Source of the DNA: Actinomycetota bacterium | GTDB lineage: Bacteria > Actinomycetota > Thermoleophilia > Solirubrobacterales > Solirubrobacteraceae | Assembly (NCBI GenBank): GCA_009699505.1 | Contig: WLOB01000006.1 | Location: forward strand, 1 to 33,330 | DNA length: 33,330 nucleotides | Direction: 5' to 3' | Part shown: piece by piece, positions 1 to 17,569 of the stretch | Numbering within the stretch: position 1 is the stretch's first letter | How the letters are laid out: every line of letters starts with the position of its first letter | Notes under the pieces: model-generated | The model's database searches: none | What the model saw: the letters and a program-made list of their open reading frames with translations, nothing else | Told to the model about the DNA's origin: nothing | Made by a program: the position numbers and the translations under genes

Positions 1-3000
1 ACGGCGATCGGCCCGTCGTCGGAGCCTTCCTCGAGCTGCCACCAGGCACCGAGGGCCTGTTCGAGCTCGCCTATCTCGGCGATGCCTTCGAGCTGCTCGA
101 GCTGTCGAACGAGCTCGTTGCGTAGGCGCGTCAGCCCTGGGAGGCGAACCCACCGTCGGCGGCCGCGGCCGATGACGTCGGCGACGTCGGTTCGCGAGGC
201 GCCACTCGTGCTCGCGACCTCTGCCGGACCCGGCCAGATCGACGACGGGTCGTCGACGGGGTCCAGCGTGAGGAACCGCCGCAAGACGTCGAGGTCCGGG
301 GCGCCCTCCGTGACCCGCCGCGGCAGCAGCTGCTCGCAGAGATCGACGAGGCGATGGACGTCCTGCTCAGCGGTGGTCGTCGTCGCCGTGGCGAGCCGCT
401 GACGGAGCGCTCGCTGAGCATCGCCGAGGACGCGCCGCGTGTCGAGACTGACCCCGCGCAACTGGTTGATCCAGAGGGGCGGTAGGTCGAGGAGCTGCGC
501 GACGGTGTCGACGCCGGCTCGCTCCAGGGCGTCGACCGCCCGGGGGTCGAGTCCGAGGCCGCGGACCGGGGTCGCCGTGGTCGCGGCTGTGAGGAGCCGG
601 GCGCGCTCGTCGTCGCTGGTGCCCGTCGTGGTGCCGGCCCGGTCGAGGTCGGCGAAGACCAGCCGCCAGGCGCGGAGCAGGTCATCGGCGGTATCGAATC
701 GCTGCGAGGCGTCGCGGTGGAGGGCCTGTCGCAGGAGTTCCGTGAGGGAGTCCCGGATGGGCTCTGGGAGGCCCCGGCCGTCGATGGTGACGTCCGCGTC
801 GGTGAATCGGGGGTCGGTGGCGCGGTCGCCCCAGAACGGCAGCGTGCCGGCGGCCATCTGGTGCAGGACGACCGCGGCGGAGAAGCGCTCTGCCGAGAGG
901 TCCCAGCGGTCCCGGCCGCCGGTGCCCAAAAACGGGTCTAGGTAGGGGCGGGTGCCGGCCTCTAGCTGGTCGGTCGGCGCACGGGAGAGTGAGAAGTCCA
1001 GGAGCACCAACCGCGGCTGTTTGCGCGGGCCGACCTCGGCGATCCCGAGGTTCTCGGGCTTGATGTCGCGATGCGCGATCCCCTCGCGCTCCAGGTACGC
1101 GACGGCGGAGAGGAGGTCGGTGCCCCAGTCCTCGAGCTTCTCGAGCGAGACGCTGCCCTCCTTGCTGAGCCACCGCGCGAGCGTCCCGTTGCCCGCGTAG
1201 CCGAGGACGAGTGCGGCGTGACCACCGAAGTCGAGCGGGCCGTCGCGCAGCGGGATGATCGTGCTGTCGCGAAGCTTGCTGAGGACCTCGCCCTCCTCGC
1301 GGATGCGGGCGCTGTGATCCGGGGTCGCGGCAATTTTCAGCACCTGCTCGCGGCCATCCGCGTCGTGCGTAAGGACAGCAACCGCGGTCGACCCCCGGCC
1401 GAGGCGGCGCTGCACAATGAACGGGCCGATCCGGTCGTCCTTTGCGAGCTTCAGGGGATCTACTTCGGGCTCATCGGGCTCAGGTGGCCTGGTGAGCTCA
1501 TCTTCGGCGAGGTCAAGGTGCTCGAGGAGGTCCGCCACCGTCGGGTAGCGATGCGACGCGTCGGCAGCCGACGCGCTGCGGATGAGCTCGGCGATCCCGG
1601 CAGAAGCGCCGTCGAGGTCGGCGGCGATCTCCAGCCCCTTGTCGCGCTGGAGGCGTGCGGTGAGGCCCCCGAGCGTCGCAGCGGGCTGCACGCCGGTGAG
1701 GACGTGATAGCCGATCGCGCCGATCGAAAAGACGTCGAGGCGCTCCGGGTCGGCCTCGACCAACGACACCGCCTCGGGCGCAACGTACGGCGAGGACTCG
1801 TCGTCGACGAGGTCCAGGACGTGCTGGGTCCCGGCGATTGCGCTCGTGAGCGTGCCGCCCTCGAGCCGGACGCCGGTCTGCCAACCGCCGATGCGCAGGT
1901 GCTGGCCCTCGGTCCGCGGGCGGACGACCAGGACGTTGCGGGGTGAGAGCGAGCGGTGGTAGATCCGTCGCCCGTGCGCCCAGGCGACGGTCTCGCCCAG
2001 TGAGCGCAGCAGGCTGAGCCGGTCGTACAGGTCGAGCTGGGTGCCGTGCTCGGCGAGGAAGTGGTCGAGCCGCTGCTCGGACGGGTCGCGCTCGAAGACG
2101 ACGGCCGCGCCGAGCTCGTGCTCCTGCGCATCGACCGGGTGCATCAGGTTCGGGTGCTGCAGCGGCCCGAGGATCTTGAACTCGCGGTCCGCCGCCCGGA
2201 CAACCCGGTCGCGCTCCTCTGGGTCCGACGACGGCAGGCCGTAGATCCGCACGCGTCGCTGCGTGCGCTGGTCGCGCGGGTGGGTGGCGGCGAAGTCCTG
2301 GTAGCCGACGCCCTCGTCGAGCAGGTCTCCCAGCTCGAGCTCGCCGACCTTGCGGGAGCGCTGTGCGGGGCGCAGGCCGATCTGCTCCATCGCGGTCGCG
2401 ATGCGCTTGGCCATAGGTCGGTCGATGCGCCGCTTGCCGAGGGAGCGGTGCTCCTCGGGCGAGACGGTGATGAGCCCGTCGATGACGCTGGGAAGACCGC
2501 CCCGCTGAGTGATCGTTCCGTCCTGCTCGGCGCCGCGACCAAAGATGCCTTGGCGCCCCTCGGCAGTGAGCTTGCACTCGAGCTCGGGGCTCGAGAGGAA
2601 GACCGCCGGCGCGATGTACGGGAGGGATTGGTTGCGGAACGCCTTCTGCCGGCCGAGCAGCGACTTGAGCTTCTTCGCCTTCCGGTTCGTGAGGAGCAGC
2701 GGATTGTCAAAGGTACGGACCGCGCCATTGGGCCGGGTGTTGCGCCACGTCTGCCCGCTGTCGACGAGCGAGCCGGGCCAGCTCTTGATCTCGACGAGGA
2801 AGACCCCCTTCGGCGAGCAGATGAGCAAGTCGATCTCGCTGATCGACCCGTCACTGATGACCTCGAAGTTCGCCCACGCGCCGTAGGGCTCCGTGGTCGG
2901 CAGCGCCTGTTGCACGAACGAGAGGGCCTCCTGCTCCCACGGGAACTCGGAGGGGGTGACTTGGACCCAGTTGGACGGCACCACGGGCGATGGTACGGGT

Positions 3001-3020
3001 GGGGTCGGGCGGGGCGTCAT
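1..3020 (-). CDS. PglW-like NERD / pseudokinase / kinase protein (C-terminus off the window)
   Basis: The reading frame is open from ATG at 3020 to the left edge (1006 codons), so the 3' end is missing. Residues ~55-80 form a NERD (PD-(D/E)XK-like) core: D64, then E77-I-K79. A first protein-kinase-like domain (~residues 255-470) looks dead: the usual HRD is HRS (355-357) and the DFG region reads IGGW around 378-380. A second kinase domain (~540-800) keeps a glycine loop, Lys562, HRD (650-652, HRDIKPEN) and DFS (675-677), so it is probably active. Residues ~805-870 resemble a helix-hairpin-helix/RNAP alpha-CTD module. This order matches PglW, the Ser/Thr kinase of BREX type 2/Pgl phage defence; the assignment is by architecture. 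Its ATG overlaps the mcrC stop (ATGA), so it is translationally coupled to mcrBC. Partners may lie beyond the left edge. It could also be a PglW relative of a non-BREX system. Confidence 0.85.
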   Translation of the reverse strand, partial: MTPRPTPPVPSPVVPSNWVQVTPSEFPWEQEALSFVQQALPTTEPYGAWANFEVISDGSISEIDLLICSPKGVFLVEIKSWPGSLVDSGQTWRNTRPNGAVRTFDNPLLLTNRKAKKLKSLLGRQKAFRNQSLPYIAPAVFLSSPELECKLTAEGRQGIFGRGAEQDGTITQRGGLPSVIDGLITVSPEEHRSLGKRRIDRPMAKRIATAMEQIGLRPAQRSRKVGELELGDLLDEGVGYQDFAATHPRDQRTQRRVRIYGLPSSDPEERDRVVRAADREFKILGPLQHPNLMHPVDAQEHELGAAVVFERDPSEQRLDHFLAEHGTQLDLYDRLSLLRSLGETVAWAHGRRIYHRSLSPRNVLVVRPRTEGQHLRIGGWQTGVRLEGGTLTSAIAGTQHVLDLVDDESSPYVAPEAVSLVEADPERLDVFSIGAIGYHVLTGVQPAATLGGLTARLQRDKGLEIAADLDGASAGIAELIRSASAADASHRYPTVADLLEHLDLAEDELTRPPEPDEPEVDPLKLAKDDRIGPFIVQRRLGRGSTAVAVLTHDADGREQVLKIAATPDHSARIREEGEVLSKLRDSTIIPLRDGPLDFGGHAALVLGYAGNGTLARWLSKEGSVSLEKLEDWGTDLLSAVAYLEREGIAHRDIKPENLGIAEVGPRKQPRLVLLDFSLSRAPTDQLEAGTRPYLDPFLGTGGRDRWDLSAERFSAAVVLHQMAAGTLPFWGDRATDPRFTDADVTIDGRGLPEPIRDSLTELLRQALHRDASQRFDTADDLLRAWRLVFADLDRAGTTTGTSDDERARLLTAATTATPVRGLGLDPRAVDALERAGVDTVAQLLDLPPLWINQLRGVSLDTRRVLGDAQRALRQRLATATTTTAEQDVHRLVDLCEQLLPRRVTEGAPDLDVLRRFLTLDPVDDPSSIWPGPAEVASTSGASRTDVADVIGRGRRRWVRLPGLTRLRNELVRQLEQLEGIAEIGELEQALGAWWQLEEGSDDGPIA

Positions 3021-4315
3021 GCGTGCGTCATCGCGAGTTCGGGCGCGAACGCGCGGAGAGCCGCGACGCACGACGCTTCGTCGGTCGGGAAGCGCGTGAA
3101 GCGCGCGGTCTGACCACTGGAGAGCGTCCACCGGCCGCCGAGCTCCTCAAACGCGCTCGCCTCTGGCGCGTCGGCAGTCTCGACGTAGCCGAGCGCCCCG
3201 AAGCGGGCGGTCTCGTCATACGCGGAGAGGTAGCTCGTCAGCTGGTAGAGGTCCTCACGAGCAACCCGGGTCCCGCCGCTCAGGCGCTTGTACTTCGCGT
3301 CGAGGATGAGCTCCGGCGCTCCGTGGGCGCCGACCATGATGTCCGGGAACAGGCGCCCCATCGTCCCGTCGGGACGGTCGAGACTGGTGAGCAGGTGCTT
3401 CCGGGTCGTGTCGGTCGTGCCGTGCACGACCTGCTCCGCCCCGAAAGCACGCCGCGCGCAATGCACGAGGAAGAGCTCCCAGAGCTCGGCGACGTCGATG
3501 AGGAATCCCTCGGCGGACTCGCCTGTCGCATGCGTGAGTGGGCCCTGCCCCTTAGCGATGCGCCAGGACAGATCGGCGGCGCGCTTGTACGCCATCGTGA
3601 TCGGCGTGTACCGGACCCGATGCAGCTCGCGGCGGGAGGGAAGCGTCGGGTGCCGGCCGACGGCGGCCCGCAGCGCCGTTAGGTACGCCTCTAGGCGCGG
3701 GCCGCGCCAGTCAGGCCGGCCGATGCGTCGATCGAGCGCTTCGTCGGCGCGAACGATGCTCCGGACGGCCGGGTTGTCGAGCAGCTTCGGGCGGTCCTTC
3801 GAAGCCACGGCCGGAGTTCCCGCGGCTCGAAGCCGAACCGTGCCCGGAACGTCGAGGCGACCGTGAACCGAGGTGCCGACGTGCGTTCTAGCGGCACGGA
3901 ACCCGGGTGCTCCGTGTCGCATGGCGTCGGCCATCGTGGATCGCCAGATCGCGGCGACGAGCTCGGCGATCACCGGCCCGAAGCCGCCGGCCTCGCCGGC
4001 TCGGGGCACGACCTTGACGCCTATGGCCGCGCTCATCCATGCGGCGATCGTGTCGATGCCGAGTCGTGGCTCGATACGCAGCGTTCTGCCGTCGCGTCGC
4101 AGCTCGCCGACGTAGCGTCCCGCCCGCCACGAGCCGTCGAGCTCACGGGTGAGCAGCGGGTTGGGCTCGTCCCGCGCGTGCGACGCACCTGCGGACACCA
4201 GGAAGTCGGCGACCGCGACGTCGTTCACGATGCCGACGAGCCACTCGTTGTCGGAGCGCGTGGTGCTGCCACCGAGCGGCGAGAGGTCGCGGAACGTGAG
4301 GGTCTTGTCCTTCAC
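3017..4315 (-). CDS. mcrC: McrC-like 5-methylcytosine restriction subunit
   Basis: A 432-residue McrC-family protein, expected to supply the nuclease of a modification-dependent (type IV) restriction complex with McrB. The C-terminal half holds the PD-(D/E)XK signature: PD with D325 in LFPDIMVG, then D339-A-K341 in LILDAKYKR. The N-terminal region (DNEWLVGIVN, RYVGELRRDGRTLRIEPR) has the character of the McrC domain that contacts McrB. GTG at 4315 is preferred as the start because it overlaps the mcrB stop as GTGA; the frame stays open upstream to 4426 but that Arg-rich extension lies inside mcrB. The gene is longer than E. coli McrC (about 350 residues). Its stop overlaps the start of the NERD-kinase gene. 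The substrate modification cannot be read from the sequence. Confidence 0.88.
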   Translation of the reverse strand: MKDKTLTFRDLSPLGGSTTRSDNEWLVGIVNDVAVADFLVSAGASHARDEPNPLLTRELDGSWRAGRYVGELRRDGRTLRIEPRLGIDTIAAWMSAAIGVKVVPRAGEAGGFGPVIAELVAAIWRSTMADAMRHGAPGFRAARTHVGTSVHGRLDVPGTVRLRAAGTPAVASKDRPKLLDNPAVRSIVRADEALDRRIGRPDWRGPRLEAYLTALRAAVGRHPTLPSRRELHRVRYTPITMAYKRAADLSWRIAKGQGPLTHATGESAEGFLIDVAELWELFLVHCARRAFGAEQVVHGTTDTTRKHLLTSLDRPDGTMGRLFPDIMVGAHGAPELILDAKYKRLSGGTRVAREDLYQLTSYLSAYDETARFGALGYVETADAPEASAFEELGGRWTLSSGQTARFTRFPTDEASCVAALRAFAPELAMTHA

Positions 4316-6192
4316 GCGGGCGAGGCACCGTCCAGGAAGACCGACCGCAGGCGCTTCAGCTCCGCGTCGCGAACGTCGGAGCCGGCGAGATACTGCTCGA
4401 GGAGAGGACCGAGCGACCACGACCACAGGTCGGTCAACGCCGGTTGTGGCTTGCCCTTGCCGGTCCAGAGGTAGGTCCCCAGCTGCACCGACTTGCGGCT
4501 TGCGAGGGACTTGCCGAGGAAGAACGTGACCTCCGCGAACTGGGAGTGTCCGATCTCGTACGGACGCCCGAGCTCCGGTGAGCTCGCAATGGCCTCGTTC
4601 AACGCGACGGCTCGGTCGCCGAGTTGCCGCACTTGCTCCTCTGCGTTTACGAACTTGAATCGCGACGGGACGAGTTTCCCCCAGGCCCCGCGGATCATGT
4701 CGTAGAGCGCGTCGGCCTCGAACCGACAGTCCTTCCAGAGGAATCGGCGGCGGAGGGCGAAGTCGAGCGCTTCGACCGACTGATCAATCTCGTTCATCGT
4801 CCCGATGACGTAGAGGTCGCCCGGGAGCGCCAGCGTCGCCGCCGGCTCGCCCTTGTTCTGGCCAGGCAGGACGAGGACCTTGTCTCGCTTGTCACCCTCG
4901 AGCAGGCTGAAGGCCTCGCCTAGCATGGCACTCAGATCGGTGCGGTTCATCTCATCGAGGACCAAGACCACCGGGAACCGCTGATCTTCAGGCTGGGCGT
5001 GGTAGTGCTCGACGATCTGCGGGAGCAGCCCGGGCTCGTACCGGGTGGTGTTGCCTTCAAGTCGCAGCCCGCGGACGAACTCGGAGTAGCCATACGCCGG
5101 GTGGAGCTGCACCCAGAAGACGTTCGACGGCGGGACGCCCCCTGCCGTTTCGAGTCCTCCTGCGCCCACCGACTGGCGACTCACCAGAGCCGTCAGTTCG
5201 TCTTCGCTGGCGAAGTACCGCGCCGGACCCCACGCCTTCAGTGCCGCCCGCCGGATCAGTGCCCCGCCGAGCTCTTCCGCCTCACGAGTCTTTCCGGTGC
5301 CGGGAGGTCCGTGGAGGACGATCTGCTTCTTCCACTCGAGGGCCTCAATGTCGGACGCGCCCTCTCCGCCTGCGAGCCCGCCGCCGCGCCACATCTCCTT
5401 GAGTGGCGAGTAGTAGAAGTCCGGGCCGGCCTCGTGGTTCATCCCGGGGGCGCCCGGCACGTACTCCGCGACCCTCTTCCGCAGCGCAAAGAGTCGCTCG
5501 TCGTTGTCCGCGGCTTCGACGTCCTCCAGCATGCCGTCAAACGCGCTCACAATCGCCGACTTGTGCGCCCCATTCGCGATCCGCTCGAACTCATCGGGCC
5601 GGAGCAGGTGCAGCAGGACGTGGCGCATCGCGTGCGTGGGCTCGCCCCCGTCATCGATCACCGCGGCGAGCTCCCACGGCGACGCCAATAGCCCCTGCAG
5701 CTCGTCCGAGGGACGATCCTTCAGACGTCGAGCGGCGTCGAGTAGGAAGCGCAGGTGCACGTCCCGACCGAGGTTGAAGTGCATGCCGGGGTCGCCGATG
5801 CCCTGGTCAAGCGCCGCGAGCACGTCCGCGGCCGGCGCCGAGTCCCCCGCCGCATCACCGAGACTGAGATCAACCAACTGCCGCTTCTTCTCCCCGCTGA
5901 CCGCATTGGTGAAGAGGAAGTAGACGACCATCACGTCGGCTGCGAGAACGCGCTGGTCCGGCGATGCCGATTCGAGTTGCAGCTTCCACTTGGAGTCGAA
6001 CTTCCCACCACCCGCGGTGCCAACAAGCGCGCCGTCTTTAAGGGCTGCGAACACCCAGGCAAGGTTTGCTCCGGTCCAGACATGTGCCCGGTCCGGGAAC
6101 AGCAGCGACCGGTCGTCAAGGATGCACCGTTCCACCCACTGTCCGACGACGAGGTCGACCTGGTCGCGGGGTCCTTCTGCGTATCGGGCCAT
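4312..6192 (-). CDS. mcrB: McrB-like AAA+ NTPase
   Basis: A 626-residue McrB-family AAA+ motor, presumed to form a ring that recognises modified DNA and activates McrC. Walker A is GPPGTGKT (295-302) and Walker B ends DEMNR (413-417), the form typical of McrB. A GTMNEID segment (around 464-470) corresponds to the McrB MNxxD signature usually tied to GTP preference; here Arg after Asp is replaced by Gln (MNEIDQS). The first ~280 residues are a specificity domain I do not recognise. ATG at 6192 is preferred because AGGA lies just upstream; ATG at 6222 in the same frame is possible and would add ten residues. The gene heads the mcrB-mcrC-kinase operon and is divergent from the PD-(D/E)XK gene at 6367. 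Confidence 0.9.
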   Translation of the reverse strand: MARYAEGPRDQVDLVVGQWVERCILDDRSLLFPDRAHVWTGANLAWVFAALKDGALVGTAGGGKFDSKWKLQLESASPDQRVLAADVMVVYFLFTNAVSGEKKRQLVDLSLGDAAGDSAPAADVLAALDQGIGDPGMHFNLGRDVHLRFLLDAARRLKDRPSDELQGLLASPWELAAVIDDGGEPTHAMRHVLLHLLRPDEFERIANGAHKSAIVSAFDGMLEDVEAADNDERLFALRKRVAEYVPGAPGMNHEAGPDFYYSPLKEMWRGGGLAGGEGASDIEALEWKKQIVLHGPPGTGKTREAEELGGALIRRAALKAWGPARYFASEDELTALVSRQSVGAGGLETAGGVPPSNVFWVQLHPAYGYSEFVRGLRLEGNTTRYEPGLLPQIVEHYHAQPEDQRFPVVLVLDEMNRTDLSAMLGEAFSLLEGDKRDKVLVLPGQNKGEPAATLALPGDLYVIGTMNEIDQSVEALDFALRRRFLWKDCRFEADALYDMIRGAWGKLVPSRFKFVNAEEQVRQLGDRAVALNEAIASSPELGRPYEIGHSQFAEVTFFLGKSLASRKSVQLGTYLWTGKGKPQPALTDLWSWSLGPLLEQYLAGSDVRDAELKRLRSVFLDGASPA

Positions 6193-6217
6193 TGGTTCCT
6201 GGTCGAGCGGGGGACGG

Positions 6218-6227
6218 GACATCTGAC
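6218..6227 (-). promoter_or_regulatory. Partial copy of the GTCAGATCCG motif before mcrB
   Basis: The minus strand reads GTCAGATGTC, matching the first seven bases of the motif, and ends 25 nt before the preferred mcrB ATG. Its spacing equals that of the exact copies before addB and two plus-strand genes, but the match is incomplete. Confidence 0.25.
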
Positions 6228-6271
6228 AGCGTGGTCGACGAACGCCGACGGCACACGCAGCCGTTGAGGGC

Positions 6272-6300
6272 AGCCAACATGGCGGGCGGACGTCTGTCAA
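6272..6300 (-). promoter_or_regulatory. Candidate promoter of the mcrB operon
   Basis: On the minus strand a perfect TTGACA (-35, positions 6300-6295) is followed after 17 nt by TTGGCT (6277-6272) as a weak -10. Transcription would begin near 6265, leaving a leader of about 70 nt before the ATG at 6192. The -35 match is strong and the -10 is poor, so this is tentative. Confidence 0.4.
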
Positions 6301-6353
6301 CGCTCGGAGGACGGATGACCGCGAACCCGTGGACGCCGCCCCCTGCGACGACC

Positions 6354-6359
6354 TAGCAT
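6354..6359 (+). promoter_or_regulatory. -10 box for a leaderless transcript
   Basis: TAGCAT fits the actinobacterial TANNNT -10 and ends 7 nt before the ATG at 6367, so the start of transcription should coincide with the start codon. No Shine-Dalgarno sequence is present, which agrees with leaderless translation. Confidence 0.55.
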
Positions 6360-6366
6360 CGCCAGC

Positions 6367-7509
6367 ATGTGCGCGATCTACCTGAAGCAGGGCGCGGAGC
6401 TCGTCGCGATGGTCGAGCAGCCGTATGACGCTGAGAGCGTCCTACAGCAACTGCTCGCTGACTACCCCGGGCTGCTCGCGGGGGAGGAAGACGAGCGCGA
6501 AGGACGGGACTGGCTGCTCGTTCAGCGCGAGATGGGCGTCGCGGGCGAGGAGAACGGCGCGAACCGATGGAGCCTCGATCACCTCTTCATCGACCAGGAC
6601 GGAGTCCCGACGCTCGTCGAGGTCAAACGCAGTTCCGACACCCGGATCCGCCGAGAGGTCGTTGGCCAGATGCTCGACTACGCCGCCAACGCATCGGCGT
6701 TCTGGAATGTGGCGACGATCCACGCTGCGTTTGAGAAACGCCACACGAACGCAGACGCCGCGGCCGATGCTCTCGCCAAGGTCCTGGGCCCGGATGCCGA
6801 TCACGAACAGTTTTGGTCAAAAGTCGGGGAGCATCTCGCCGCTGGACGCCTGCGACTTGTGTTCGTCGCCGACGAGATCCCGAAAGAGCTGCGACGAATC
6901 GTGGAGTTCCTCAACGAACAGATGCAACGGACTGAGGTACTGGCTCTCGAGGTTCGCCAGTACGTCGAACGTGGCGGTGACCGCCTCACGCTGGTCCCAC
7001 GACTGATCGGTGCGACGCAGGCGGCACAGATCGCGAAGGGCACTGGCGGCGTCACGACTCGCCGGAAGCTCACCGAGGCAGACATCCGCGCGGGAATTAC
7101 CGCCAGTCTTCCTGGTGACATGGGCCGGCGGCTCCTTGGGCTCTACGAGTTCCTGCAGTCCCATGGTCGGGCGTCGTTCGGCACCGCAAGCGTCACGATG
7201 TGGCTCGGCGAGGATCGGGACCCTGCGAAGTCGAACCCGATCTCCCTATCGGTCTACCGTGACGGTGGGGTGGTCCTTAACTGGCGGTTCTTGTTCGACC
7301 GACGCAGTCCCGACGAGCTGGATCGCCTCGCAGATCTGCTGAGTGCGATGCCCGCTCTCCGCGAGAGCATTGACGCCGCCCGACAGTCCGGGTATCGCGC
7401 CTATACCACCCTGCCTGCGGCTGCGATCCTTGCGTCTGACGAGGGCCTCCGTGATTTCGAGCGGCTGCTTCTGGAAGCGTGTCGCCCGTCGAGTCAGCCG
7501 ACAAGCTGA
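6367..7509 (+). CDS. Stand-alone PD-(D/E)XK nuclease-like protein
   Basis: A 380-residue protein with an N-terminal restriction-endonuclease-like core: D71 (SLDHLF), E85-V-K87 (LVEVKRSS) and, after a short helix, Q101-M-L-D-Y105, the QxxxY helix seen in RecB-like nucleases. The second half (from about residue 215) is of unknown fold and may bind DNA or a partner. It is transcribed away from mcrB with a 174-bp gap and probably from a leaderless promoter. The position beside McrBC suggests a defence role, but the substrate is unknown. Composition is less GC-rich than the right part of the window. It converges on the zinc-ribbon gene ending at 7573. A housekeeping nuclease of the same fold cannot be excluded. 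Confidence 0.8.
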   Translation: MCAIYLKQGAELVAMVEQPYDAESVLQQLLADYPGLLAGEEDEREGRDWLLVQREMGVAGEENGANRWSLDHLFIDQDGVPTLVEVKRSSDTRIRREVVGQMLDYAANASAFWNVATIHAAFEKRHTNADAAADALAKVLGPDADHEQFWSKVGEHLAAGRLRLVFVADEIPKELRRIVEFLNEQMQRTEVLALEVRQYVERGGDRLTLVPRLIGATQAAQIAKGTGGVTTRRKLTEADIRAGITASLPGDMGRRLLGLYEFLQSHGRASFGTASVTMWLGEDRDPAKSNPISLSVYRDGGVVLNWRFLFDRRSPDELDRLADLLSAMPALRESIDAARQSGYRAYTTLPAAAILASDEGLRDFERLLLEACRPSSQPTS

Positions 7510-7572
7510 ACGAGAGCGCGCCGTTCATAAGGCGGTCGGGAGCGGGCCCGTTCACCTACCTGCGGGCCAAGC

Positions 7573-8952
7573 TCATCGTTTCCCGCCCAAGGCGCTGGGA
7601 GCCTTCCACCCAAAGTGCAAACTGATGCCCGGTGGCATCCCCCGGACGTGCGGCGACACCCACGTCTCTCCTGATCGCAGAGAGATGCCCGCCGCGGACG
7701 CAGCAGTGATCGCGTCGTCGCTCGCAGCGTGGCCTGGTGGTAGCTGTCGTCGGTGCCCGGCGACGTATGAGGACATCCAACGCGACGTCTCGCCAATAGG
7801 TTCGAACGCGCGTGGTGCGACAGATCGACTGGCAGGCGGCCTCCGACGCTCGGCCGTGGTCAAGCGCGAAGCCACGCCGGACCGTGCCGGCTGCCGTGCC
7901 GCGACCCGGGCAGGAGTTGCGGGACGAAGGTGGTCGAGGTCGGGTGGACAGGTCAGCTCAGCGAAGATCAGCAAGGCACAGACCCAGGCCCGGTCGACCC
8001 TGGAACTCCCGGAACCCGCAGGCACCTGAATGGCGAGCGGATCGCTTCTTCCTGCGACGCGCATTCTCAGGGAGATTCGGCCCTTCGCGTCTTGGTAGGC
8101 CACACCGACTTCGGGCCGCCCCCTGTCCTGCAGGACCGGCGAGAACGCAAGCTCGAAGCCGGACTTCGCTCGGACGTGTACGACGTGCCCAAAGGCAAGG
8201 CTGCGCTCCGATCTGATGCGTCGGCTCGCGGACTCACCGAGGAATTTCAGCTGCGGCTGCAGGGTGTCCGAGAAGGCGTACCGCATCGGCAGCGCCGGTT
8301 CGATGTCGAGACCCTCTAGCGCCTGAAGGAGGTCCGCCCCGTACGCCTCATCCGTACTCGAGGCGAGGCTTGGCCCGTGGACGTGCTCACGGACTGCATC
8401 CCACTGGGGCCCGGCTGTCACGAAGTTGCCGGTCCCGGAGGCCCTACGGCCGGGGTCCTCCCACCAGCGGCTGGCACTGACCCGGGCGACGAGGTGACCG
8501 CGGACTCGCAGGTCCACCGCCGCGACTCGACGGTTGAGGTCGATCGTCATGCCGTCACGACGGGCCCCGAGTTGCGAATCCACGGTGCGGAGGAGCCGGT
8601 CAGCAAAGTGCTCCATCACGACGGAGTCGATTGCGCGCTCCGCGGCACCATCGCCTACGAACTGAGGCACCTGCAAGACGCGGTCCCCCACTATCACCGC
8701 CCCACCGTGAATCCCCACAGTGCATCCGAAACCTTCCAGGTGACGACGCACCTCTTCGAGACGCTTTGTCGCTCGAGTCTTCGCAGCTCCAGACGCTACA
8801 GGCCTCGGTGACGCGGATCGTTTCGGTGCTCGATCGATAATTAGCCGCGCACCGCACTTACCGCAGCCACCGGTTCCGCGCACCGGACCCAGCCGTCGCG
8901 AGCGTGCCCCGCAGTCAGGGCACCGGAGAGAGATGACCGGCGTCGGCTTCAC
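7573..8952 (-). CDS. Zinc-ribbon protein of unknown family, paralog 2
   Basis: A 459-residue protein I do not recognise by family. It starts with one zinc ribbon (C11-x2-C14, C30-x2-C33), then an Arg/Lys-rich linker. A middle alpha/beta region and a central block (SLAFGHVVHVR...SGFELAFSP) follow, then a C-terminal block from residue 383 with YVAGHRR and SGETWVSPHVRG. All these are shared with the upstream neighbour; by eye 47 of 70 residues are identical without gaps in the C-terminal block. GTG at 8952 is chosen because it overlaps the stop of paralog 1 (GTGA); an upstream in-frame extension to 9075 would lie inside paralog 1. It is the last gene of the addB-addA operon and ends convergently 63 nt from the nuclease gene. 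A nucleic-acid-binding role is inferred from the zinc ribbon only. Confidence 0.8.
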   Translation of the reverse strand: MKPTPVISLRCPDCGARSRRLGPVRGTGGCGKCGARLIIDRAPKRSASPRPVASGAAKTRATKRLEEVRRHLEGFGCTVGIHGGAVIVGDRVLQVPQFVGDGAAERAIDSVVMEHFADRLLRTVDSQLGARRDGMTIDLNRRVAAVDLRVRGHLVARVSASRWWEDPGRRASGTGNFVTAGPQWDAVREHVHGPSLASSTDEAYGADLLQALEGLDIEPALPMRYAFSDTLQPQLKFLGESASRRIRSERSLAFGHVVHVRAKSGFELAFSPVLQDRGRPEVGVAYQDAKGRISLRMRVAGRSDPLAIQVPAGSGSSRVDRAWVCALLIFAELTCPPDLDHLRPATPARVAARQPARSGVASRLTTAERRRPPASRSVAPRAFEPIGETSRWMSSYVAGHRRQLPPGHAASDDAITAASAAGISLRSGETWVSPHVRGMPPGISLHFGWKAPSALGGKR

Positions 8953-10568
8953 GCTTGCACTCCACGAGCTCTTGCGACGGCGCCCGCGCGAGGGTCCGAG
9001 AACGCCTTCGGTGCGTTCCAGGCGAAGTGCAAACGGATTCCAGGGGGTACTCCTCGAGTGTGTGGTGATACCCAAGTCTCGCCGGACCGAAGTGCGATGC
9101 CAATTGTTGCCGCATTCGCTGCCGCCGATGCGCTGGCCTCTTGCCCGGCCTGCAGCTTGCGTCGATGGCCGGCGACGTACGAAGCGAGCCAGCGGGCGGT
9201 CTCGCCAGTCGGCTCAAAAGTTCTCCGCCGCCCGCTGGGTTCCCGCGACATTCGCCGCTCCGGGTCAGTAGTTCGAGACGAAACTCCTGACCTACCGGGA
9301 GCAGTCGACGACGCTTGGCGGCTGCCGCCGGACGTACATGGCGATGCCCGTAGGTGGTCTAGCGTCGGCGGGCACGTGAGTTCCGCAAATGCCACAAGGG
9401 CGAGTGCCCACCCCCGCGCCAGGCGCTCGTGTTCGGTGGTGGCCTCGGGCGCCCACACCGGGAGCGGGTCTCCAATCGCAGAGACCCTCATCCGGAACGC
9501 CTGGGCAACCGCCTCTTCGACGAACACCACTTCAACCTCGGGCCGGCCCCTAGGCGCAGCAATCGGCGCGAACGTGAGCTCGAAACCGCTGGCACCTCGC
9601 ATGTGAACGGCGTGCCCGAACGCGAGGCTTCGCCCTGTCCGAATCTTCGCGCTGGCCGACTCGGCTAGGTCCCGCACTTCTGTCGACAGATCGAACGGGA
9701 AGTCGTAGTGATTGAACCCGACGCCGTCTCGGATCGGCGGCCGCCGTGCCTTCGGCGCGCTCGCCGCCGCCTCCCCCTTGGGAGCCGTATCCGTCGCTAG
9801 TCCTTCGGCCGGTTCGAGGCCGGCGAGGACCCGCAACTCTTCCCACTGTGTACCTGTCGTCAGGAAGTTCCCGACCCCTGACCGTTCATTTGACGGAGAG
9901 GTCCACCCAGCCGCACTGACGAACGCGACGTTGCTTCCCCGGTAGCGCACCTCGACCACCGGGCTCTTGGGTTGATGCCGAAGTTCGAGTCCGTCACGCG
10001 GGTGCTCCAGCGACGCCTGCGCGGCTTCGAGCAGCCGGTCGGAGAAGTAGCGCGCAACAACGGCGTTCAGCGTGCGCTGTTCGACTCGCTGTCCGCTTAG
10101 CACCCGCAGCGAGATGCGCTGTCCGTTCAGCTCGAGATCGTTTCCGACGACCGAGACCTCTATGCCCGCGGCTTGAAGGAAGGTGGCGATACGGTCAGCG
10201 ACGCTCTGCGCCTCGGCTACCACTGAGTTCTCGGTAGTGCCGCGCTTCGTACCAGCCGCCGTCGGCCCTTTCTCCGTCTTCGGCCTGCCAGGGATGCGGA
10301 TGTCCGGGCCTGTGACCCGAAGGCGGTCGGTCCCACAGGCATCGCATGCATAGGTCGGCCCATCCGACCAGAGTCGACTACCCCCTCGGTGGCATCGAGT
10401 GCACTCGATCGCAACCTTTGCAGTCCCAGCCGCTTGCGACATCGTTTGTCCGCAGCACACGACCGATTCGACTCGTAGTGGGCGTACCAGGACACGCTTG
10501 CGACAGACGGCGCACGCGACAGGGACCCGGGGGTCCTTTGCCCTCTTCTTCGTTTTGCTCTTCGCCAT
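8949..10568 (-). CDS. Zinc-ribbon protein of unknown family, paralog 1
   Basis: A 539-residue protein of unknown family, paralogous to the next gene. It has two N-terminal zinc ribbons (C19/C22 with C38/C39, and C56/C59 with C75/C78) behind a Lys/Arg-rich tail. Next come a middle region (VVARYFSDRLLEAA, GVGNFLTTGTQW) and a central block (SLAFGHAVHMR, SGFELTFAP). A C-terminal block (451-522) carries GHRR and SPHTRG. Conserved His and Arg residues in both copies (GHAVH, GHRR, PHTRG) could form an active or binding site. The ATG lies 19 nt after the addA stop, so it is almost certainly co-transcribed with addBA. It could be an accessory or effector subunit of the helicase-nuclease, or a passenger. 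Confidence 0.82.
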   Translation of the reverse strand: MAKSKTKKRAKDPRVPVACAVCRKRVLVRPLRVESVVCCGQTMSQAAGTAKVAIECTRCHRGGSRLWSDGPTYACDACGTDRLRVTGPDIRIPGRPKTEKGPTAAGTKRGTTENSVVAEAQSVADRIATFLQAAGIEVSVVGNDLELNGQRISLRVLSGQRVEQRTLNAVVARYFSDRLLEAAQASLEHPRDGLELRHQPKSPVVEVRYRGSNVAFVSAAGWTSPSNERSGVGNFLTTGTQWEELRVLAGLEPAEGLATDTAPKGEAAASAPKARRPPIRDGVGFNHYDFPFDLSTEVRDLAESASAKIRTGRSLAFGHAVHMRGASGFELTFAPIAAPRGRPEVEVVFVEEAVAQAFRMRVSAIGDPLPVWAPEATTEHERLARGWALALVAFAELTCPPTLDHLRASPCTSGGSRQASSTAPGRSGVSSRTTDPERRMSREPSGRRRTFEPTGETARWLASYVAGHRRKLQAGQEASASAAANAATIGIALRSGETWVSPHTRGVPPGIRLHFAWNAPKAFSDPRAGAVARARGVQA

Positions 10569-10587
10569 CGAGGTTTGCGGTATCGGG

Positions 10588-14126
<3,539 letters not shown>

Positions 14127-14130
<4 letters not shown>

Positions 14131-14201
14131 GCGGCGGGGTCCGACGGGAGGTCGGTCGCAGGAGTCGCGTTCTGACGGGGACTGCGGGCCGGGGCGCTCA
14201 T
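14127..14201 (-). CDS. 24-codon coupling ORF between addB and addA
   Basis: An ATG at 14201 overlaps the addB stop (ATGA), and the TGA at 14129-14127 overlaps the addA ATG (ATGA). The 24-residue product is Pro/Ala/Ser-rich with no recognisable domain. It exactly bridges the gap between the two large genes, so ribosomes leaving addB could be handed on to addA. This may be its only function. Alternatively the ORF is a chance opening in GC-rich DNA. Confidence 0.4.
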
Positions 14202-17200
14202 GCGTCCTCCCCCTGGCGCTCCCAGAACCGCGCCCGTGGGTCGTCGGCCTTCAGGCGGCGCATCGCCTCGCGCTGGGGGTGGCAGAGCGGCTCGAAGTCG
14301 CAGTAGCCGCAGTTGGATCGGGGGTCGGGGTCGCCGTTCTTCTTGCGGCCGTGGAGCGCGACGGGCTCGCGGTGGAAGTCGCCGCCATGGATGCCGTGGG
14401 CGAGGTGCTCGACGACCCCGCGGATCTCGTGCTCCTGCTCGCCCAGGACGGCGCCGTGGAACGGGATCCGGCTCCCCGCGCCGGGGTGGCGGAAGTGGTC
14501 GTACTCGGCGGTGCCGGTGGTCGAGTCGACGCCGAGCGCGCGGGCGGCGGCCCACAGATAGATCGGCAGCTGGAGCTTGCGGCCGAACGCGATGTCGTTC
14601 GGGTCGGCCCGCGGCTTGCCGGTCTTGTAGTCGACGACGCGAAAGGCGCTGCCGTCGGCGGTCGCGCGCACGCGGTCGATACGCCCGTGGACGAGGAGCG
14701 GCGGGCCGTCGCCGGGCAGCTCGAGCGGCTCGTCGCGGCTGAACGGCCCGCCGGCTGCCGGGTCCTCTCCGGGGCGCAACGCTCCGAAGCGGACCTCCTG
14801 CCCGCGCTCGAGGAACGGCATGGGCGGGGTCAGCGGGGTGCCGTCCGCGGCGTCCTCGCCGGCCTCGAGCCGCTCCTGGAAGTCGGCGAGTGCGCGGTCG
14901 TCCTCCTCCAGCTCGGTCTGCAGCCACAGCGCGAGGTCGCGGCGCATGGCGTGGCGGTCCTGCTCCAGCAGCACGGGGTAGCCCGTGAGGCCCTGGGCGG
15001 AGAGCGCGTCGAGCTCCTCGTCGAGCAGGTCGTGCAGCCGCCCGCGGTGGTCGTCCGGGTCGCCGTCGCGGGCGCCCCGCTCGCCGAGCTCGGTGAGGAA
15101 CCGCTCGAGCACGTGGTGCAGCACCGACCCCGTGTTCAGCGCGTCGAGCCGGAGGACGTCCTCAGGGTCCTCGCGCGGCTTCAGCCCCAGGATGTCCTTG
15201 AGGAGGGTGCGCTGGGGGCAGGTCGCGTAATTCTCGAGGGCGGTCGGCGAGAACGGCCGCTGCAGGCGCGGCATCGCGCGCAGGTCGTCGAGGGCCTCGT
15301 GGCTGAGCGCCCCGTCGTACGGGGTGAGGTCCGTCGACCAGCGGGCGGCGTCGGCGGCCGTCGCCCGCACGTAGGCGGGGCGTTCACTGCTGAGGACGCC
15401 GGCTGCGGCGGCACGGGTGGCCGGGTCGTCGGACTCCAGCGCGGTGATGAGCCACTCCTCGGCGTTGCGCGCCTCGGCCGGGGTCTGCGCCCCGAACTGG
15501 GCGGTCCGGATGCGACGGAGCCACGGCTCGGCGGCAGTCGCGAAGTCCTCGATCTCGGCGCGATCGCCCGTGAGCGCATCCACCACGCCGCGGATGAAGG
15601 TCGACGGGAGCGCCGGACGGTCGGCGGTGCCGTCGGTGCGGGCGTAGCCGACGGCGAGTCGCTCGGGCCCGGCCCCGAGGAGGCCGGCGAACTGGAGCGG
15701 CTCGGGGTCCGGGGCGTCGGCGCGCAGCGGCAGGTCCCAGCCGTGGGCGGCGTTCAGGTCGCGCCGGTCGGCGTCGAGCAGCAGCGGGTCCTCGGCCGGG
15801 GCGGCGGGGAAGCGTCCGTCGACGAGGCCGACGATCGCCATCGCGCGGACGCCGACGTGGCGGAGCGAGAGCGCGTCGGCGACGATCACGCCGCGCTGGG
15901 CGAAGGCGCCCTCGCCGTGCTCGTTCGCGCGCAGGCGCTCGAGGGCATCGGCGACGAGGCCGTCGACGCTGGAGGCGGGGAGGTCGTCGGTCAGGACCGT
16001 GAGCGACTCGAGCTCGTCGAGGACGCCCTCGGCGCCGATGACGTAGCGGTCGACGGCGTCGCGGAGGAACGCGAGGTGCTCGGCCCACGGGGCGTTCTCG
16101 GGGCGCCGCTCGGCGAGCGCGCGGAGGTCGCCCACGAAGCGCTCGAGCTGGTCGGCCTGGGCGAGGCGGTTCGTCGCCCACTCGGGCCGGTCGTCGTCGG
16201 GGTGCCGGGCGCGGAGCGCGTCGCGGAAGGCCGCGAGGCGGTCGCGCCACTGGTCGGGTCCGGCAACGATGCCGGCGTCGCGCGCGATGCCGTCCCACGC
16301 GGCGGTGGAGATGCCGCCGTACTCGTGGAACGTCGCGTCGGGCAGGAACGCGTCGGCGAGGAACGCGGAGACATCAGCGCGCTGGAGCCGGCCGTCGAGC
16401 AGGCGCAGCAGCGCGGTGATGCGCCGGCCGAGCGGCCGCTCGGCGATCGTCGGCGCGTCGTGGAGGTAGACCGGCACGTCGGCCTCGCGCAGCGACGTCT
16501 CGATCAGCGTGCGGTGCGGCTCGGTGTGGCGGTACGCGATCGCCATCTCGTGGAACGGGATGCCGTCGTCGGCCCAGCGCAGGACGGTGCGCACGACCTC
16601 GTCGACCTCGCGGGTCGGGTCCGGCGCCTCGATGACCGTGACGGTGTCGTCGGTGGGGCTCGGGGTGAAGGGGACGGTGGCGGTGGTGCCGGTCTCGGCG
16701 GGGGCCGGCGGGCCGTCGAACGGGGCCCACGGGGTGTTGTCGGCCGTCGTGGCCGAGACCAAGCTCGGGACGGTCGCGTCGGCGGCGTGGGCGGCGTTCG
16801 TCGTGGCCGAGGGGTTGGCGACCGTCGACCAGGTCGCGTCGGCGGCCGCGGCCCACGCGCGCATGGTCGTGGTCGCGGCGTCGGCCGGGCCGTCGACCGC
16901 GGGGAGGAAGACCGTGACGGGGACCCGCTCGGCCAGGCGGTCGAGGAGCCGGCGCTGGATGACGGTCGGGGTCCACAGGGCGTGGACCAACAGGTGCTCC
17001 CCGTGGAGCTTCGTCGGGTCGGCCGCGAGGACGGCGTCCTCGACGGTGAACCAGTCGTGCCGACGGGCCTCGACCGCGGCGTAGAGCGTCGCGAGATCCA
17101 GGAGCCGCTCGTCGTCGACCGCGGCGCCGGCGGTCGTCAGCGCCTCGGCGTCGATCCCGGCGCCGCGGAGGTCTCGCAGCGTGCGGATCATCGCGTTCTC

Positions 17201-17569
17201 GAACCCGGGCGTGTGGACGACGTCGCCGAAGCGCTCCGGCGGGCCCGCCGTGGCCTGCCTGACGAGCACCGGGTCGACGAGCGGCGGCATGGGCTGCCGG
17301 CCCGCTGCGAGCAGCGTCGGCGCGCCGAGCGTCATCGCGAGCTCGCCGGGGGTGACGATCTCGACGTTGACGTGCCCGCCGAGGATCTCGGCGATGCGAC
17401 GGCGCAGGTACGGCCGCAGCAGCGTCTCCCCCACGAGCACCGTCACCGCGGCGAACGGGTCGCTGGCCTTGGCGTTCTTCACGGCCTGCGCGAGGGCGAG
17501 CTCGAGCGCGGCTCGAGGGCCGGTGATCAGGCGGTGGGACGGAGGCACGCGATGCGGGGACGGCGTCAC
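14198..17569 (-). CDS. addB: AddB-like PD-(D/E)XK nuclease with Fe-S cysteines
   Basis: A 1123-residue AddB/RecC-like subunit. The N-terminus has the AddB layout (HRLITGPRAAL, then VTVLVGETLLRPYLRRRI) but the usual GKS/GKT of the Walker A loop is missing, so it is an inactivated helicase fold. The motif VGLVDGRFP...DPLLLDADRR is typical of this family. The C-terminal nuclease has VVDYKTGK, and four cysteines (C in ATCPQR, and three in NCGYCDFEPLC) match the iron-sulfur staple of AddB-type nucleases. It should pair with AddA. GTG at 17569 is taken as start; an in-frame GTG at 17548 is an alternative, and neither has a strong ribosome site. It heads the addB-addA-zinc-ribbon operon, and an exact GTCAGATCCG lies 25 nt upstream. 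Confidence 0.88.
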   Translation of the reverse strand: MTPSPHRVPPSHRLITGPRAALELALAQAVKNAKASDPFAAVTVLVGETLLRPYLRRRIAEILGGHVNVEIVTPGELAMTLGAPTLLAAGRQPMPPLVDPVLVRQATAGPPERFGDVVHTPGFENAMIRTLRDLRGAGIDAEALTTAGAAVDDERLLDLATLYAAVEARRHDWFTVEDAVLAADPTKLHGEHLLVHALWTPTVIQRRLLDRLAERVPVTVFLPAVDGPADAATTTMRAWAAAADATWSTVANPSATTNAAHAADATVPSLVSATTADNTPWAPFDGPPAPAETGTTATVPFTPSPTDDTVTVIEAPDPTREVDEVVRTVLRWADDGIPFHEMAIAYRHTEPHRTLIETSLREADVPVYLHDAPTIAERPLGRRITALLRLLDGRLQRADVSAFLADAFLPDATFHEYGGISTAAWDGIARDAGIVAGPDQWRDRLAAFRDALRARHPDDDRPEWATNRLAQADQLERFVGDLRALAERRPENAPWAEHLAFLRDAVDRYVIGAEGVLDELESLTVLTDDLPASSVDGLVADALERLRANEHGEGAFAQRGVIVADALSLRHVGVRAMAIVGLVDGRFPAAPAEDPLLLDADRRDLNAAHGWDLPLRADAPDPEPLQFAGLLGAGPERLAVGYARTDGTADRPALPSTFIRGVVDALTGDRAEIEDFATAAEPWLRRIRTAQFGAQTPAEARNAEEWLITALESDDPATRAAAAGVLSSERPAYVRATAADAARWSTDLTPYDGALSHEALDDLRAMPRLQRPFSPTALENYATCPQRTLLKDILGLKPREDPEDVLRLDALNTGSVLHHVLERFLTELGERGARDGDPDDHRGRLHDLLDEELDALSAQGLTGYPVLLEQDRHAMRRDLALWLQTELEEDDRALADFQERLEAGEDAADGTPLTPPMPFLERGQEVRFGALRPGEDPAAGGPFSRDEPLELPGDGPPLLVHGRIDRVRATADGSAFRVVDYKTGKPRADPNDIAFGRKLQLPIYLWAAARALGVDSTTGTAEYDHFRHPGAGSRIPFHGAVLGEQEHEIRGVVEHLAHGIHGGDFHREPVALHGRKKNGDPDPRSNCGYCDFEPLCHPQREAMRRLKADDPRARFWERQGEDA

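Follow-up and report, generated by a model that had tools for sequence, protein, structure and literature searches.

The stretch of DNA analyzed here (the window, 33,330 nucleotides) is contig C490 of a Thermoleophilia (Actinomycetota) genome bin made up of 533 contigs and 75% complete. At its left end, the sequence and the ORF calls reveal three minus-strand open reading frames arranged in a chain, each start codon overlapping the preceding stop codon (Table 1). They encode the two subunits of an McrBC enzyme and a protein with a NERD domain and two kinase domains resembling PglW of the BREX type 2 (Pgl) system. The GTGA and ATGA overlaps described in the original prediction are indeed present in the sequence, and Pfam, PDB, and PADLOC matches uphold the McrB, McrC, and PglW-like identities that it had proposed. 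However, the genes overlap and are not “fused” as had been written, and the proposed trio, although its three genes are present, is only a partial view of the locus, as pglW reaches the contig end at position 1 without a stop codon. The intergenic region separating mcrB from a divergent gene is the sole non-coding space ahead of mcrB-mcrC-pglW. It is presumed to be the promoter region of the operon; no match to a sigma-70-type promoter was found within its 174 bp.

Table 1. Features of the mcrBC-pglW locus in the window and of its continuation on two further contigs of the bin.
Feature	Contig	Position	Strand	Details
mcrB	C490 (window)	6192-4312	-	626 aa, ATG start
mcrC	C490 (window)	4315-3017	-	432 aa, GTG start
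pglW (NERD/double-kinase gene)	C490 (window)	3020 to beyond 1	-	1006 aa visible
GTGA overlap	C490 (window)	4312-4315	-	mcrB stop and mcrC start, from sequence
ATGA overlap	C490 (window)	3017-3020	-	mcrC stop and pglW start, from sequence
Divergent intergenic region	C490 (window)	6193-6366	.	174 bp
Divergent 380-aa gene	C490 (window)	6367-7509	+	PADLOC candidate PDC-S11, E=3e-13
pglW, C-terminal part	C237 (L096)	5411-4191		PglW profile 1004-1398, 275 bits
pglX	C237 (L096)	4096-437		1428 bits
pglY/brxC	split C237/C505			177 bits (N-part) and 1188 bits (C-part)
pglZ	C505			713 bits
brxD	C505			672 bits
brxHI	C505			913 bits

The first two proteins display two features of a type IV restriction enzyme, namely an McrB with an NxxD GTPase signature and, in operon with it, an McrC with a PD-(D/E)xK nuclease. 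McrB matches the Pfam family AAA_5 (1e-13) and the E. coli McrB chains in the PDB (7e-23, 6hz4). It contains a Walker A motif GPPGTGKT (residue 295), followed by DEMNR (413), MNEID (466), which holds the canonical NxxD signature (NEID), and ALRRRF (479). Its N-terminal half has no significant Pfam match and is apparently helical in a low-confidence structure model (pLDDT 53) that offers no clue to specificity. McrC matches PF10117 (E=1.1e-19), and its nuclease motif is intact (PD-x14-DAK, from residue 324). The E. coli McrBC enzyme likewise associates an NxxD McrB GTPase with the McrC nuclease, but the McrB of the window aligns with it only over the GTPase domain. The substrate of McrB is probably modified cytosine. 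CoCoNuT systems belong to the McrBC family, and superoperons joining them to BREX and to other systems have been reported (PMC11090510). The present pair was nevertheless rejected as a CoCoNuT member: CoCoNuT McrB is characterized by an NxD deletion, whereas the canonical NxxD is kept here.

The third protein has a NERD domain (2e-15) in which the E-I-K motif is kept (E62..E77-I-K79). The first kinase domain is pseudokinase-like, with HRSLSPRN in place of a motif carrying the catalytic Asp, and the second is intact (HRDIKPEN, DFS). This succession of NERD, pseudokinase, and active kinase agrees with the PglW architecture published in a large BREX survey (PMC12839542). The PADLOC profile PDLC02512 matches with 1076 bits over positions 5-984 of 1403. 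The profile is covered no further because the contig ends within the gene; the window carries the N-terminal ~1006 of the ~1410 residues of PglW. Throughout, only full-profile matches to PglW were counted, the profile matching every genome via its kinase domains.

The remainder of the operon was found by searching the bin with an intact BREX-2 locus carried by another of its contigs, C523. Two contigs, C237 and C505, were recovered with 82-90% identity. In C523 coordinates, position 1 of the window corresponds to 6546, C237 covers 6554-14580, and C505 begins at 14581. The gaps are therefore 7 nt between C490 and C237, which preserves the PglW reading frame, and 0 nt between C237 and C505. The remaining part of pglW lies on C237, where it is followed by pglX and by the N-terminal 120 residues of PglY; PglY is completed on C505, ahead of PglZ, BrxD, and BrxHI. 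Hence, the BREX type 2 set (PglW, PglX, PglY/BrxC, PglZ, BrxD, and BrxHI) is complete in the bin and in order, and the whole bin contains exactly two PglX and two PglZ. From the tiling on C523, the matching PglW and PglY parts, and these two copies of each gene, we therefore infer one operon spread over three contigs. Since the ends of C490, C237, and C505 share no overlapping sequence, one could also suppose that pglW does not run on into C237 and C505, and that the locus consists of mcrBC and a lone PglW. This is highly improbable: the chance of both junctions tiling the C523 locus so closely is roughly 1e-6, and what PglW and PglY lack is exactly what the ends of C237 and C505 encode. Directly downstream of brxHI, C505 also encodes a PLD-family nuclease resembling NgoFVII (L100:3380-4603, minus strand).

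If the three contigs are contiguous, as their abutment on C523 suggests, the sequence to the left of position 1 belongs to a BREX type 2 locus of the standard kind, an outcome that the original prediction had named as counting against it. The kinase had been proposed as a dedicated partner of McrBC; it would instead be accounted for by this complete set. As in BREX type 2/Pgl (Streptomyces coelicolor pglWXYZ; type 2 set of PMC12839542), all six proteins occur, and in order. The present locus differs in that McrBC is chained before pglW and in that it is distributed over three contigs. Thus, an ordinary BREX operon can take on the look of a new three-gene system when it is broken over contigs.

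The C523 locus (L006) offers a natural comparison within the bin, with two BREX-2 loci having the same core but different PglX recognition regions and accessory genes. Its order is pglW, pglX, an opposite-strand ABC ATPase gene, pglY, pglZ, brxD, and brxHI. The proteins of the two copies are 83-98% identical, except for PglX (76% overall). In the alignment of the latter (L096:437-4096 vs. L006:7863-11555), identity falls to 26-28% in columns 550-700; therefore, the two copies probably methylate different sites. The two pglW genes are 88% identical at the DNA level, and homology ends ~7 bp upstream of the window pglW ATG. Upstream of C523 pglW, mcrBC is absent and a non-coding leader is found, the place of which is taken by mcrC in the window. 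Conversely, the ABC ATPase of C523, of AAA_15/AAA_21 type (OLD-like; L006:11591-13936, minus strand), located between pglX and pglY, is absent from C237, that is, from the BREX-2 locus of the window. Similar BREX-2 cores are thus accompanied by different accessory genes, McrBC in one case and the ABC ATPase in the other. In the C523 PglW (L006:3527-7774), E-Q-M replaces the E-I-K motif retained by the window copy, so its NERD nuclease domain may be inactive. The two copies could come from co-binned strains and not from one chromosome. Heavy strain mixing is made less likely by the addAB region of the window, of which the bin contains a single copy, although it could still have occurred.

The association of mcrBC with pglW was then considered across genomes. 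PglW loci were compared from GTDB genomes (41 loci), from further Actinomycetota, and from four annotated plasmids. Where the downstream sequence is long enough, pglW precedes pglX, together with pglY/pglZ, in nearly all cases. mcrC adjoins pglW in none of the 51 other PglW-bearing genomes examined, so the three-gene neighborhood is not conserved, which the original prediction had likewise named as counting against it; the trio is also absent beside the nearest McrC relatives. The McrC family itself occurs in 7 of the 52 PglW-bearing genomes, the present one included. Individual candidates were discarded: in G420, McrC lies ~1 Mb from pglW; in G734, G759, and G769, the McrC matches are at odds with the contigs or positions of pglW; and in G790, McrC and pglW are far apart if they share a contig. 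In G791 (L076), the genes upstream of pglW form an E1/JAB-type cluster and not McrBC; by eye, the region preceding the pglW remnant (L076:3595-9303, minus strand) encodes a ThiF/E1-JAB-like protein, a metallo-beta-lactamase-like protein, and an HTH/peptidase pair. Close relatives of McrC are rare, being found in 3/399 genomes of the class and 2/376 of a phylum sample, each count including the window's genome. Scans of viral contigs with McrC and with PglW gave no matches; with McrB, six full-length relatives were obtained, McrBC pairs without PglW. A related pair, also without PglW, is carried by a Mycobacterium gordonae plasmid. An independent mcrB-mcrC-pglW system devoid of a BREX core thus finds no support, either in the 51 other PglW genomes or here, where the BREX core is present.

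These data bear on the idea, put forward in the original prediction, that the kinase senses phage or switches the McrBC nuclease. PglW would gate McrBC, by phosphorylation or otherwise, the whole forming a sensor-nuclease unit; McrB or McrC might, for instance, be phosphorylated when a phage infects the cell. The 4-nt overlaps do couple the three genes, and in Streptomyces Pgl the kinase activity of PglW is essential for resistance, and a role in relaying a phage signal through phosphorylation has been proposed (PMC4365076). However, a complete set of BREX partners is available to PglW, no McrBC lies beside pglW in the 51 other genomes or at the C523 copy, and related McrBC pairs occur without any PglW. 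Moreover, a small HTH gene overlaps pglW by 4 nt on Polaromonas and Sphaerotilus plasmids, so that such an overlap is not specific to mcrC. (A crude motif scan for genes overlapping pglW starts missed many loci and was set aside.) With the BREX partners of PglW present and the trio unconserved, a kinase-switch partnership with McrBC is not supported; it is conceivable but very improbable, and nothing specific speaks for it.

Another genome of the same order, G256, carries McrB and McrC proteins 45 and 47% identical to those of the window. There (L122:877-11576, minus strand), McrBC is followed, after 48 nt, by hsdM, hsdS, a ymh-like gene, and hsdR. It thus precedes a complete type I restriction-modification operon, with no PglW. 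A homologue of the divergent 380-aa gene (44% identical) lies directly upstream of mcrB (L122:12729-11584), so the more persistent companion of McrBC may be this gene rather than the kinase. Judging from two loci only, the 380-aa gene is a possible companion of this McrBC subfamily. Its product carries an LVEVKR motif in the window. The two loci are therefore alike in their homologous 380-aa neighbor and in the position of McrBC before a methylation-based restriction operon, but the downstream operon is of type I (hsdM-hsdS-ymh-hsdR) in G256 and BREX-2 at the locus of the window.

The sporadic occurrence of McrBC, the homology boundary at the pglW start codon, and the further defence-like genes of the flanks would also suit an incidental juxtaposition within a defence island, in which McrBC and the BREX-2 genes behind it would share only their location and have no functional link. 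We consider this unlikely, because joint expression is implied by the precise ATGA overlap and by the loss of a separate leader for pglW, and because the same McrBC subfamily is placed immediately ahead of a type I restriction-modification operon in G256. The locus is best explained, with good confidence, as a BREX type 2 (Pgl) operon of order mcrB-mcrC-pglW-pglX-pglY-pglZ-brxD-brxHI, with an McrBC type IV module at its 5′ end and an ordinary PglW as the kinase. As mcrC overlaps pglW and replaces its leader, McrBC and BREX probably share a transcript that starts upstream of mcrB, and their translation is probably coupled.

McrBC enzymes cut DNA carrying modified bases, and N6-adenine methylation, such as that introduced by PglX, should leave them unprovoked. 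In the operon proposed here, PglX would methylate host sites at N6-adenine, and BREX, with PglW as kinase or sensor, would block unmethylated phage. McrB would sense modified DNA, probably containing modified cytosine, and with GTP drive cleavage by McrC, thereby stopping phages that escape BREX through their modified bases. McrBC is thus most likely a co-transcribed accessory type IV enzyme providing a layer complementary to BREX, by analogy with BrxU in BREX type 1. On the plasmid pEFER, a BREX type 1 operon is likewise combined with a modification-dependent restriction enzyme, BrxU. The two protect against different, complementary ranges of phages, because base modification that evades BREX exposes the phage to BrxU (PMC8565348); the same division of labor is the simplest reading of the present locus. 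The two pairings are nonetheless built differently, since BrxU is a single-chain DUF262/DUF1524 enzyme of the GmrSD family, whereas the present locus combines an AAA+ GTPase and a PD-(D/E)xK nuclease (McrBC) with BREX type 2. The E. coli hsd/mcr immigration control region is also comparable, as McrBC adjoins an adenine-methylating system there, but this partner is HsdRMS and not BREX-2.

In the literature found, no McrBC heading a BREX-2 operon is described, and McrB and McrC go unmentioned in the main text of the large BREX survey (PMC12839542). Of the papers found, only one, on a Salmonella BREX, mentions both pglW and mcrB. The combination of McrBC with BREX-2 therefore appears undescribed, although each component is known. 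It adds BREX type 2 with McrBC to a pattern, BREX accompanied by a type IV enzyme, that is already represented by BREX type 1 with BrxU.

Finally, further genes are found beyond the 380-aa gene. Two tandem paralogues on the minus strand (7573-8961 and 8949-10568) are 38% identical, overlap by 13 nt, and carry CxxC pairs near their N-termini; neither matches a Pfam family. The neighbors of the defence genes also include genes for AddA- and AddB-like helicase-nucleases, at 10588-14130 and 14198-17569, likewise on the minus strand.
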